Position numbers and translations under genes: made by a program. This document shows, in pieces, positions 12,649 to 14,971 of a DNA stretch of 39,201 nt. The stretch comes from Alphaproteobacteria bacterium (GTDB lineage Bacteria > Pseudomonadota > Alphaproteobacteria > Micropepsales > Micropepsaceae). The notes under the pieces are model-generated. The model ran no database searches and was not told the DNA's origin. It was given only the letters and a program-made list of their open reading frames with translations. The stretch lies in NCBI GenBank assembly GCA_021324545.1, contig JAJPIX010000026.1, positions 1-39,201 on the forward strand, read 5' to 3'. Numbering within the stretch: position 1 is the first letter of the stretch; every line of letters starts with the position of its first letter.

Positions 12649-12891
12649 ATGACGGACAAAAAACCCTCCCCCGAAGACCTGGCCGGCCAGCTGAAGCAGC
12701 CGGGCTGGCGGCTCGTTCCCAAAGACGGCGGCGCGCCGGTGGACGGCACGCTCGAGCATGTGGCGCGCGCCGCCTATGACCGCAAGAAGAAGGGCCAACA
12801 TCCGGGCCTCGTCCAGCGCATCGAAAACGCCATCGAGATCGACCTGCTCGATCTCGAAAAACTCTGGTGGCAGCTCGGATTGCCGAGGTAG
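12649..12891 (+). CDS. Small conserved-looking protein of unknown function
   Basis: 80 residues, starting MTDKKPSPEDLAGQLKQPGW. I do not recognise the family. It is hydrophilic and mostly helical by eye, with a basic patch DRKKKGQHPG near the middle, then a helix with alternating acidic and hydrophobic residues (IENAIEIDLLDLEKLWWQLG). There is no signal peptide or membrane segment, so it should be cytoplasmic. ATG 12649 is preceded by GAGG at a good distance; the frame is open to 12607, but that part overlaps the promoter. Codon use (G/C at third positions) resembles its neighbours, supporting a real gene. It sits between a repeat cluster and a toxin-antitoxin pair. Confidence 0.6.
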   Translation: MTDKKPSPEDLAGQLKQPGWRLVPKDGGAPVDGTLEHVARAAYDRKKKGQHPGLVQRIENAIEIDLLDLEKLWWQLGLPR

Positions 12892-12941
12892 CGGACGATC
12901 ATTCCTTGGTTTTCTTGGACACGCCCGTCTCCCGCGGAATC

Positions 12942-12971
12942 TTGGGCACTATCCTGTTCCCGTGCTATACT
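12942..12971 (+). promoter_or_regulatory. Putative promoter and direct-repeat operator of the toxin-antitoxin pair
   Basis: -35 TTGGGC (12942-12947), an 18-base spacer, -10 TATACT (12966-12971). The antitoxin ATG begins only seven bases after the -10 element, so the mRNA may be leaderless. GCTAT occurs at 12964-12968 and again at 12975-12979, an 11-base period overlapping the -10 and the start codon; this spacing suits binding by ribbon-helix-helix dimers. Both readings are inference. Confidence 0.5.
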
Positions 12972-12977
12972 TTTGCT

Positions 12978-13259
12978 ATGGTCCGGCTTCCGCGCACCCT
13001 TGAACTCGATCCTGAAACCGAAGCACGCGTGGACGCGCTGGCGAAGCGGCGCGGCCAGAAGCCGGCCGACGTTGTGGCCGCAGCGGTAGAGTTGCTCGAT
13101 ACGGTGGACGGCGAGCTTGACGTTGAAGAAGACCTGCGCCGCCTGCGCGAATTCGAGCGCACCGGCATGGCCGTGCCGCTGGACGAAGTGAAAGCCTGGA
13201 TCGAAAGCTGGGGCACGGCGAACGAGCTTGCCGCGCCCAAGCCCCGCAAGATGGCATGA
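12978..13259 (+). CDS. Ribbon-helix-helix antitoxin (CopG/ParD-like)
   Basis: 93 residues. The N-terminus RLPRTLELDPETEARVDALAK gives the beta strand and first helix of a ribbon-helix-helix DNA-binding domain, followed by QKPADVVAAAVELLD. The acidic C-terminal half, with DEVKAWIESWGTANE, is the usual toxin-binding tail of antitoxins paired with ParE/RelE toxins. It should neutralise the toxin encoded next and repress its own promoter, where GCTAT direct repeats overlap the -10 element. It overlaps the toxin gene by ATGA, typical of coupled modules. The frame is open to 12867, but ATG 12978 fits the family N-terminus. Confidence 0.85.
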   Translation: MVRLPRTLELDPETEARVDALAKRRGQKPADVVAAAVELLDTVDGELDVEEDLRRLREFERTGMAVPLDEVKAWIESWGTANELAAPKPRKMA

Positions 13260-13534
13260 TCCGCCTCGCGCCGGGGGCGGTTTCGGATTTGGAGCGCCTG
13301 CGCAATTTCCTCTATCCCGAGAACCCGAAGGCCGCGCAACGGGCGATGCGCGCGATCTGGAACAAGATCGAGCTGATCGCGCGATTTCCCGAAATGGGCG
13401 TTCCTGCGAAGGCGCCAGACATTCGCCAGACATTCGTGCGGTTCGGAAAGCGCAGCTATGTCATCCGCTATGCGGTTGGGGGCGACAGCCTCATTGTGCT
13501 GCGCATCTGGCATAGCCGCGAGCGGCGCGACTAG
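13256..13534 (+). CDS. RelE/ParE-family toxin
   Basis: 92 residues, the normal size of the RelE/ParE fold. MIRLAPGAVSDLERLRNFLY is the first strand and helix; NPKAAQRAMRAIWNKIELIARFPEMG is the second helix and the loop typical of ParE toxins; the C-terminal strands RQTFVRFGKRSYVIRYAV and LIVLRIWHSRE close the sheet. ParE members poison gyrase and RelE members cleave mRNA at the ribosome; the sequence does not decide, though absence of a clear RelE catalytic set and the paired ribbon-helix-helix antitoxin favour ParE. Its ATG overlaps the antitoxin stop. A HigA-like gene converges from the other side, 43 bases away. Confidence 0.85.
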   Translation: MIRLAPGAVSDLERLRNFLYPENPKAAQRAMRAIWNKIELIARFPEMGVPAKAPDIRQTFVRFGKRSYVIRYAVGGDSLIVLRIWHSRERRD

Positions 13535-13577: not shown

Positions 13578-13871
13578 TCACGCCGCTTCGCGCACTACCC
13601 GTTTCACCTTGATGGCGCGTTCGTGCTTCATCGCCTGTGCGAGGTCGTAATCCATCTGAAGACCCAGCCAGATACTGGCGCCGCCACCGAACGCCTTTTC
13701 AAGCCGGATCGCCATCTCCGGCGAAATTCCGCTCTTGCCGTTAACGAGATTGTTGAGCGCCTGTCGCGTCACGCCCAGAACTTTCGCCCCTGCCGTCACG
13801 CTCAATCCCAGGGGATCAAGACAATCATGACGGACGATTTGTCCGGGATGTGGCGGGTTTTTCATCGGCAT
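13578..13871 (-). CDS. HigA-family antitoxin/XRE regulator, without an adjacent toxin
   Basis: 97 residues. KNPPHPGQIVRHDCLDPLGLS is the HigA N-terminal signature; GAKVLGVTRQALNNLVNGKSGIS is the helix-turn-helix; EMAIRLEKAFGGGASIWLGLQMDYDLAQA is the rest of the domain. HigA normally follows higB and neutralises it. Here no higB-like frame exists upstream on the same strand (13872-14395) or in the repeat region, so it is solitary. It has its own promoter with a palindrome in the spacer, fitting autorepression. ATG 13871 has GGAAGG upstream; ATG 13865 is an alternative. It may regulate other genes or cross-neutralise a distant toxin. Confidence 0.88.
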   Translation of the reverse strand: MPMKNPPHPGQIVRHDCLDPLGLSVTAGAKVLGVTRQALNNLVNGKSGISPEMAIRLEKAFGGGASIWLGLQMDYDLAQAMKHERAIKVKRVVREAA

Positions 13872-13925: not shown

Positions 13926-14048
13926 TCGAAGCCATCGCCCCCCGGCGCTTGGCGATTGTGGCACAGGCGCCGGGCGGGCGCCCTTATCCCCCAAAGCCAG
14001 ATTCTGTCCTATTGGAGAGCTATTACTCCCCAAATATGCCAATAATCC

Positions 14049-14077
14049 TTGACAGGGGGCCCGTCGGTTGTTACATT
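14049..14077 (+). promoter_or_regulatory. Putative sigma-70 promoter for an unassigned transcript
   Basis: TTGACA (14049-14054), a 17-base spacer, TACATT (14072-14077): a perfect -35 and a 4/6 -10 at ideal spacing. The predicted start is A14084. No protein gene follows on this strand; the transcript would meet a terminator-like hairpin after some 60 bases. Confidence 0.55.
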
Positions 14078-14083
14078 CGCCCC

Positions 14084-14146
14084 ATCTCCGGAAATGCGTC
14101 CAAATCCCGAAACCCTGCCAAAGGCGGGGATTTTCGGGCCGTTTTT
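14084..14146 (+). ncRNA. Candidate small RNA of about 63 bases
   Basis: Defined by the promoter at 14049-14077 and the hairpin plus T run at 14106-14146. It has about 22 unpaired bases (14084-14105) followed by the stable stem. It matches no RNA family I can recall. An ATG at 14094 opens a 40-codon frame that runs through the hairpin and is in frame with the nine-codon ORF at 14187, so a leader mRNA is the alternative reading. Confidence 0.35.
14106..14146 (+). terminator. Intrinsic-terminator-like hairpin with T run
   Basis: The stem is CCCGAAA (14106-14112) with TTTCGGG (14132-14138) and CCCTGCC (14113-14119) with GGCGGGG (14123-14129); the loop is AAA and AT is bulged. That is 14 base pairs, one of them G-T. 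Three bases (CCG) later comes TTTTT (14142-14146). The spacing between stem and T run is a little long, so efficiency is uncertain. Confidence 0.55.
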
Positions 14147-14186
14147 GCGCGTTTCCCGGCTCACCCCACTCCCAGGAGAATCACCC

Positions 14187-14216
14187 ATGACCGCACGAAC
14201 CATCTCCTCGCCCTGA
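14187..14216 (+). CDS. Nine-codon leader-like ORF
   Basis: MTARTISSP followed by TGA. It has an unusually good ribosome site for this window: AGGAG at 14174-14178, eight bases before ATG. It is followed within two bases by a hairpin (14218-14221 and neighbours pairing with 14235-14241). A short ORF, ribosome site and hairpin make up the plan of an attenuation leader, but no gene follows on the plus strand; the next gene is the antisense cyclophilin. The composition (Thr and Ser twice each) is not strongly biased to one amino acid. A chance ORF remains possible. Confidence 0.35.
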   Translation: MTARTISSP

Positions 14217-14395
14217 CGGCCTCCCCGCCCCTTTGGGGGCCTTGCGGATGTCCGAACAGGTTCGCGCCACACAAGGCTTGCGCGCGCGGGCGAGGAGAAT
14301 CCCAAAAATACGCCAAGCGAAAAAAAGCGATTCCGGGCGGCGCCCGGAGTCTGTCTTCGCCGGTCCCGAATTTAAAAATTTTTTCGCGCCGGAAA

Positions 14396-14971
14396 TTATT
14401 CGCCGGCGATCGTCACCGTCTTCACAACAACCGGTGTCAGCGGCGTCGATTGCGGCGGAAACGGCCCCTGGCCGCCGGTTGGCACGCCCGCAATGCGGTC
14501 GGCCACATCCATGCCTCTCACCACATGGCCGAACACGGCATAGCCGGTCGTGTTGCCGTTATCGAGCCGCTGATGATCGAGCGCGGTGTTGTCGGAAAGA
14601 TCGATGAAAAATTCCGCCGTGGCCGAATCGGGCGCATCGTTGCGCGCCATGGCCACGCTTCCGTGCAGGTTGGAAAGGCCGTTGGCGGCTTCCAGCGGAA
14701 TGGGCGCATGCGTGGGCCGTGCGGAGCCGTCGGCGGCATAGCTGCCCATCTGGATCACAAAGCCCGGCTCCACGCGATAGACAATGGTGCCGTCGAAATG
14801 GCCTTCGCGCGCATAGGCGATGAAATTGGCCACGGTCTGCGGCGCCTTGTCCCTGTCGAGCGCGATGGTGATCGTGCCCATCGAGGTTTCGATGGTCGCG
14901 GTGGGCGCGTTTTGTGCAAGCGCCGCGCTGCCCGCAACAAGACAGGCGGCAATCATGGCGATGCGGCGCAT
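14396..14971 (-). CDS. Periplasmic cyclophilin-type peptidyl-prolyl isomerase
   Basis: 191 residues with a signal peptide MRRIAMIAACLVAGSAALA cut before QNAPT. The cyclophilin core follows: ATIETSMGTITIALDRDKAPQ, TVANFIAYAREGHFDGTIVYRV, FVIQMGSY, SVAMARNDAPDSATAEFFIDL and GYAVFGHVVRGMDVADRI. It is the short PpiA/PpiB-like form. The usual catalytic Arg of FHRV is kept in this YRV version. It should catalyse proline isomerisation in the periplasm and assist envelope protein folding. It is the last gene of the minus-strand run from argH; DUF4175 begins 12 bases upstream on the same strand. The 3' flank is AT-rich (14369-14389) but shows no clean terminator. Confidence 0.92.
   Translation of the reverse strand: MRRIAMIAACLVAGSAALAQNAPTATIETSMGTITIALDRDKAPQTVANFIAYAREGHFDGTIVYRVEPGFVIQMGSYAADGSARPTHAPIPLEAANGLSNLHGSVAMARNDAPDSATAEFFIDLSDNTALDHQRLDNGNTTGYAVFGHVVRGMDVADRIAGVPTGGQGPFPPQSTPLTPVVVKTVTIAGE

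Follow-up and report, generated by a model that had tools for sequence, protein, structure and literature searches.

The question raised by positions 14049–14146 of the window (the whole 39,201-nt stretch of DNA analysed) is whether a promoter closely followed by a terminator marks an isolated gene for a new small RNA, as a sequence-only reading had proposed. The parts named in that reading were all found on the forward strand. The promoter, TTGACA-N17-TACATT, has its -35 hexamer TTGACA at 14049–14054, a 17-nt spacer and its -10 hexamer TACATT at 14072–14077 (pattern scan and alignment of six sites, see below); it matches the consensus at 10 of 12 positions, with TG preceding the -10. A hairpin of 14 pairs with one 2-nt bulge (14106–14138, -21.3 kcal/mol) begins 57 bases after the start of TTGACA and is followed by a T5 run at 14142–14146. 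With a start at about 14084, deduced from the position of the -10 hexamer, the RNA would measure 63 nt up to the last T at 14146, as had been proposed. No protein gene was recognised on the unit, the three long ORFs that overlap or abut it having no Pfam match, and its neighbours by Pfam are an HTH_3 gene (13578–13868) and a cyclophilin gene (14396–14971), both on the reverse strand. Nearby, a ParE-type toxin gene lies behind a small ORF without Pfam match (12867–13534); no toxin was recognised beside the HTH_3 (HigA-like) gene, which has the near-palindrome GTGACTATGGTCAC upstream.

By its scan counts and fold energy, the unit taken alone barely exceeds chance. A scan of 8 kb gave three promoter-like sites (shuffle mean 1.0, sd 1.1), and the 63-nt RNA folds at -23.9 kcal/mol (z -1.86), with 10 of 200 shuffles at least as stable. 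The remark that the unit resembles no RNA family agrees with Rfam, which gave no family in the whole window at gathering score and just three matches (E 1.6–3.2) when E values as high as 10 were admitted, each lying outside the 63-nt unit. 6S RNA (RF00013) was considered for a long closed structure at 14202–14302 but was rejected; the only match of the genome lies elsewhere (C48:104602–104759, 57.4 bits).

Searching G000, the genome that contains the window (2.70 Mb in 68 contigs), by DNA similarity led to two further places, and a pattern search with the 29-bp promoter gave six sharp sites, three per strand, and no others at up to 3 mismatches (reversed-pattern control, 0 or 1). These sites are located in the window, upstream of recA, upstream of a gene that we take from its translation to be lexA, upstream of a terminase gene of the type found in gene transfer agents (GTAs, domesticated viruses), and at two intergenic places. 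The sequence GAAC-N7-GAAC, presumably a LexA-type box, lies between the promoter site and recA and likewise between the promoter site and lexA. Alignment of the six sites showed conservation of the -35 (TTGACA being invariant), most of the spacer, the -10 and about 20 bases beyond. In two pairs the likeness extends over 322 and 391 columns, the longer being that of the window and the region upstream of recA, which have the whole repeated unit (14004–14372, forward strand) in common at 72% over 391 alignment columns; in the more distant copies the dyad, hexamers and leader described below are alike and the remainder does not align. The recA placement is found in G000 only: of 29 relatives, L024 has 48 bases of DNA before recA, and among the other 28, with 1 kb each, none has a promoter of this pattern there and 24 have the LexA-type box. 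A stricter 'module' pattern misses even the G000 recA copy and was left out of these counts. The proposal of a new small RNA is therefore supported in part. A short terminated transcript is a reasonable prediction from the promoter, hairpin and T-run and from the similarity between copies in relatives (see below), but with its promoter and leader recurring at the start of the GTA cluster and upstream of recA and lexA, the unit is not an isolated small RNA gene.

Direct DNA homology to a 301-bp stretch was found in none of 40 relatives. A sequence model was needed because the plain 29-bp pattern, at up to 2 mismatches, found nothing in 60 relatives and no stretch in a broader genome contig set. 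The model, built from the six sites by sequence only, detected 42 sites with E≤0.01, spread over 7 of the 69 genus genomes: 13 in G000, 10 in G061, 8 each in G089 and G049, and one each in G046, G069 and G074 (29 in the six relatives), counts that are not independent since copies within a genome are related. Six of the G000 sites have E values of 3e-18 or better and seven are weaker, from 2e-8 to 0.009. One weak site (L089, contig C15, E 0.0086) precedes a small zinc-finger-like gene and an ORF that, from its translation, we take to be polA-like. Among 84,980 named species genomes, a -10-plus-leader pattern gave 24 stretches, 17 of them in G089, G061 and G049; the other seven, in unrelated organisms, were taken as chance because about six chance matches were estimated by hand. 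The leader pattern had no match in viral contigs. As far as these genomes and viral contigs go, the promoter module appears to be lineage-specific, and a literature search gave no report of dispersed GTA-type promoters or of GTAs in Rhizomicrobium.

The promoter spacer holds an 11-bp dyad, 5–15 bases after the TTGACA start. At this offset the 42 sites have on average 3.93 of 5 possible pairs; over 340 other offsets the mean is 1.31 (sd 0.18, maximum 1.88). The window copy, AGGGGGCCCGT (14054–14064, forward strand), has 4 of 5 pairs and is a candidate operator; the window thus has an inverted repeat between its -35 and -10, as does the GTA promoter controlled by GafZ (see below). The dyad of the lexA copy, ACGGGGCCCGT, is perfect, and over all 13 G000 sites the mean is 3.0 pairs, the weaker sites fitting less well. 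The letters are mostly A-N-GGG-N-CCC-R-T in G000 and mostly ACCGTnACGGT or ACCGCAACGGT in the relatives, and the offset is fixed though the six model sequences have GGG/CCC-type halves and the relatives CGT/ACG. Such a change of letters from genome to genome is as would be seen with a species-specific operator.

A folding scan predicted intrinsic terminators at 24 of 41 scored sites, the window included, against 5.5 expected from shuffles. A scan with bulges disallowed had found 12 of 41 (1.2 expected), the window not among them. The window terminator was also missed by a simple scan that allowed 0–2 bases between stem and T-run, its T5 standing three bases past the stem. In G061, G089 and G049, terminators were scored in 21 of 25 copies and begin at +44 to +64 from the TTGACA start, the model used for the site search ending at about +60; their stems differ in sequence but keep the fold. 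In G000, terminators were scored at 2 of 13 sites, namely the window and one weak site. The GTA, lexA and recA copies are without one, and in the recA copy a hairpin is followed by TTTT five bases later. The six genome copies, together with terminators at the same place in the relatives' copies, put the window unit above chance.

The conserved leader of about 20 nt (CCCATCTCCGGAAATGCGTCC, 14081–14101, forward strand) lies at and after the predicted start, and its register to the -10 is constant within a base; its presence in all sites found is partly a matter of selection, as it belongs to the search model. Behind the T-run, CGCGTTTCC (14148–14156, forward strand) is complementary to leader positions 14090–14098 (GGAAATGCG), a pairing possible only after read-through. 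Over 39 sites, own pairings compared with swapped ones gave a weak signal (p = 0.013, mean z -0.85).

Farther downstream on the same strand (14174–14216), an RBS-like AGGAGA (14174–14179) and a 9-codon micro-ORF, MTARTISSP (ATG at 14187, TGA at 14214–14216), are predicted. Short ORFs after the promoter were also seen by eye in the recA, C20 and C39 copies and in several copies of relatives. Those with an RBS-like site (window 14187–14216; L016, L017 and L020) read MTARTISSP, MNRTKRRTCPSP, MNRPIFR and MIRPIFR, the pattern MxRPIFR being present in two own copies only and in none of 60 relatives, where the micro-ORF is often ATG CAC AAG CTC TAA. In many copies a CCTCGCCCTGA block follows or overlaps. 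The window also has a perfect 10-bp inverted repeat, CTCCTCGCCC/GGGCGAGGAG (14204–14213 and 14289–14298, about 75 nt apart), and the recA copy keeps this pairing, by eye, with changed letters and one G-U. Several copies in G061, G089 and G049 have different genomic palindromic repeats between the terminator and the micro-ORF.

Six of the 7 genomes with sites have one of them upstream of the GTA terminase gene; the seventh, G089 (81% complete), gave no terminase match. The site is directly before the small first GTA gene in G000, G061, G049 and G046. In G069 (L059) and G074 (L058), an Xre-like gene and a second gene, presumably RES-type, separate the GTA promoter from the first GTA gene. The cluster of G061 runs terminase, portal, protease-like protein, prohead protease, capsid and connector. 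In G000 the terminase is truncated to a 374-aa ORF followed by an Ntox44-like ORF (L005 1–1872, G000:C60), and because of this cut and the toxin-like ORF behind it, the GTA of G000 may be decaying. Since no GTA gene was recognised beside the window copy (neighbouring ORFs, Pfam) and its sister sites precede the terminase, we class the window copy as a GTA-type promoter, not as a GTA promoter.

The GTA terminase is present in 40 of the 69 genus genomes. Of the thirty GTA loci that were read, 3 belong to the family, 22 promoters in 21 further genomes have a CTTG[AT] layout, and 6 (G084, G017, G008, G012, G041 and G016) were not recognised and were left out. The 22 promoters, whose layout was recognised by eye and by regular expression and not blind, have a dyad after CTTGA at offset 4, with on average 3.18 pairs compared with 1.11 at other offsets (maximum 2.23); at least 3 pairs are present in 16, and 0–1 in five (G019, G048, G007, G062 and G085). 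A leader-like stretch stands at one fixed position in all 22. A leader score model (GTA and own sites) reached at most 13.6 bits in the other GTA loci, with a reverse-strand control maximum of 9.2. By their sequence (CTTGAA...CCCATNT), we take the 22 promoters to be heat-shock-like rather than sigma-70-like. G045 (L138) has two GTA-type promoters in tandem, about 110 bp apart.

A candidate for the factor acting on the dyad is the product of a DUF6456 gene, which is present in all 7 genomes with sites (in G000 at C58, 128.8 bits). Homologues of GafA are annotated as DUF6456 in two reports (PMC9638019, PMC9765227). At cut-offs of about E < 1e-30 and E < 1e-40, which we chose from the match lists, strong DUF6456 and terminase matches occur together in 34 of the 69 genomes and are both absent from 29, with 4 genomes having the terminase only and 2 DUF6456 only. 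The GafZ-type identity of the gene is assigned by family, and orthology with Caulobacter GafZ is putative. In PMC11150451, Caulobacter GafZ is described as an antiterminator with the GTA promoter as its single target, enriched at an inverted repeat between the -10 and -35 of that promoter; mutation of the repeat lowered GafZ binding to background and ended GTA production. Among 36 DUF6456 proteins of our set, 4 were unreadable by the pattern for the C-terminal helix WPxxSAKVVLxIALDR, and K/R is kept in 30 of the other 32, the exceptions being F in G000, the genome with the odd operator, and G in G049. This correlation between helix residue and operator, involving one or two genomes, is suggestive only.

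Our preferred, still tentative, reading (probability roughly 0.43) is that the window carries one of the dispersed copies of a GTA-type promoter module, which yields a short terminated RNA by default and is under a dyad-binding regulator, most likely a GafZ-type DUF6456 protein. In this Rhizomicrobium-like alphaproteobacterium, the module would consist of a sigma-70-type core promoter, a spacer dyad as operator, a transcribed conserved leader and an intrinsic terminator close to the promoter. In the default state, polymerase would stop after an RNA of about 63 nt. A dimeric factor on the dyad, most likely the GafZ-type (DUF6456) GTA regulator, would control the promoter and, on the model of Caulobacter GafZ and lambda Q, could load on polymerase at the dyad and let it pass the terminator. 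Read-through would then give a longer RNA carrying the micro-ORF and running against the cyclophilin gene. Antitermination is likely by this analogy, since an operator between the hexamers with a terminator close behind is the layout that it requires and GafZ provides a precedent.

Several lines of evidence favour this reading: i) the six sharp copies and the 42-site family, with the dyad at a fixed offset and terminators well above the shuffle expectation, ii) the site that precedes the terminase in 6 of 7 genomes and the dyad and leader in other GTA promoters, and iii) the co-occurrence of DUF6456 with the terminase, the GafZ precedent and the helix residue. Against it weigh i) the single target of Caulobacter GafZ, whose repeat is not the dyad of the G000 family, ii) the scarcity of scored terminators in G000 (2 of 13 sites), with none at the GTA, lexA and recA copies, iii) the restriction of the recA site to G000, the five other GTA promoters with 0–1 dyad pairs and the possible decay of the GTA, and iv) the reliance of the helix correlation on one or two genomes, the relatedness of the copies, which are not independent, and the dyad itself, which could equally serve a repressor.

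An unlikely alternative is that the sites encode a family of trans-acting small RNAs, with the RNA of about 63 nt as the product, the conserved 20-nt leader as a target-pairing seed and the variable hairpin as a terminator only. Pairwise BLAST similarity within three relatives would suit such a family, as among the matches listed it often covers about -7 to +95 (the promoter, a transcript of about 65 nt and the terminator) and then ends, and so would the alignment of the short RNAs, in which the leader sequence is conserved and that of the hairpin varies. Several copies, including the window's, are also without a clear gene directly downstream in a crude ORF list. However, the GTA, lexA and recA sites all carry the same leader and have no scored terminator in G000, so that for the GTA and lexA promoters a short RNA of this kind is not predicted, and the near-fixed register of the leader to the -10 is that of a promoter-linked cis element. 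In those three copies the leader would form the 5' end of an mRNA, and a cis-acting promoter/leader element therefore appears to be a better fit than a small RNA seed.

Slightly less probable, in our judgement, is a GTA-type promoter whose spacer dyad is bound by a repressor or by a dimeric regulator of another kind, with a terminator that merely insulates the unit. Spacer dyads are typical repressor operators, and the dyad here is strong and differs between genomes; moreover, most G000 copies are without a scored terminator and the identity of the regulator is putative. On the other hand, the set distance of the terminators in the relatives calls for a reason, and the GafZ precedent (PMC11150451) places an antiterminator at the same point of a GTA promoter.

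More doubtful again is a repeat spread by duplication, which carried the promoter along and left the window copy functionless. This would account for the two pairs of own copies alike over hundreds of columns, the palindromic repeats seen by eye in relatives between terminator and micro-ORF, the lack of a recognised gene downstream of the window copy on its own strand and the recA site peculiar to G000, but not for distant own copies that keep the dyad, hexamers and leader where the remainder does not align, or for terminator stems that change in sequence and retain their fold. A chance promoter and hairpin, to which the unremarkable scan counts and fold z-score of the unit alone would point, is very improbable in view of the six genome copies against a control of 0–1 and the sites in relatives, the promoter-leader part being already beyond chance.

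Returning to the GTA-type module under a GafZ-type regulator, a wider proposal, which we regard as unlikely on balance, is that in this lineage the antiterminator of the GTA now regulates promoters across the chromosome. Dispersed promoters with its operator, many of them terminated early and in G000 lying also upstream of recA and lexA, would switch from short RNA to read-through at GTA onset, tying domesticated-phage gene transfer to SOS and recombination genes. The restriction of the recA site to G000 and the five other GTA promoters poor in dyad pairs take a little from the odds of this proposal and of the module reading alike. GafZ of Caulobacter reportedly has a single target; here a dispersed family of like promoters has two of its six sharp copies upstream of recA and lexA. 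The family makes a possible takeover of host genes by the antiterminator of a domesticated phage directly testable, and it illustrates that only comparison may reveal a control module in a promoter-terminator pair that resembles a solitary small RNA.

Among known systems, small RNA genes in general are similar to the unit in having their own promoter and an intrinsic terminator, but differ in that the leader here is common to promoters of protein genes and the unit belongs to no Rfam family. The closest likeness is to PgtaT of Caulobacter crescentus with its putative GafZ binding element (GafY/GafZ/IHF), which, according to PMC11150451, is the promoter of a GTA cluster, has its inverted repeat placed between the -35 and the -10, and is served by a regulator with a sigma-like HTH and followed by a downstream terminator overcome by antitermination. 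There, GafZ has one target and the -35 is called degenerate, whereas here there are several sites per genome and a consensus TTGACA; the Caulobacter repeat, GCGCCCG-CTGGCGC, also differs from the dyad of the G000 family. Lambda Q is named as a GafZ analogue (PMC11150451). The conserved leader and a terminator beginning within about 60 nt of the -35 set the present module apart from PgtaT. In the lambda late promoter, the Q site lies between the hexamers and a short default transcript ends at an early terminator. The module shares this layout of factor site, short terminated RNA and early terminator, the likeness being one of layout only, and differs in having dispersed chromosomal copies in place of the one phage promoter of lambda.
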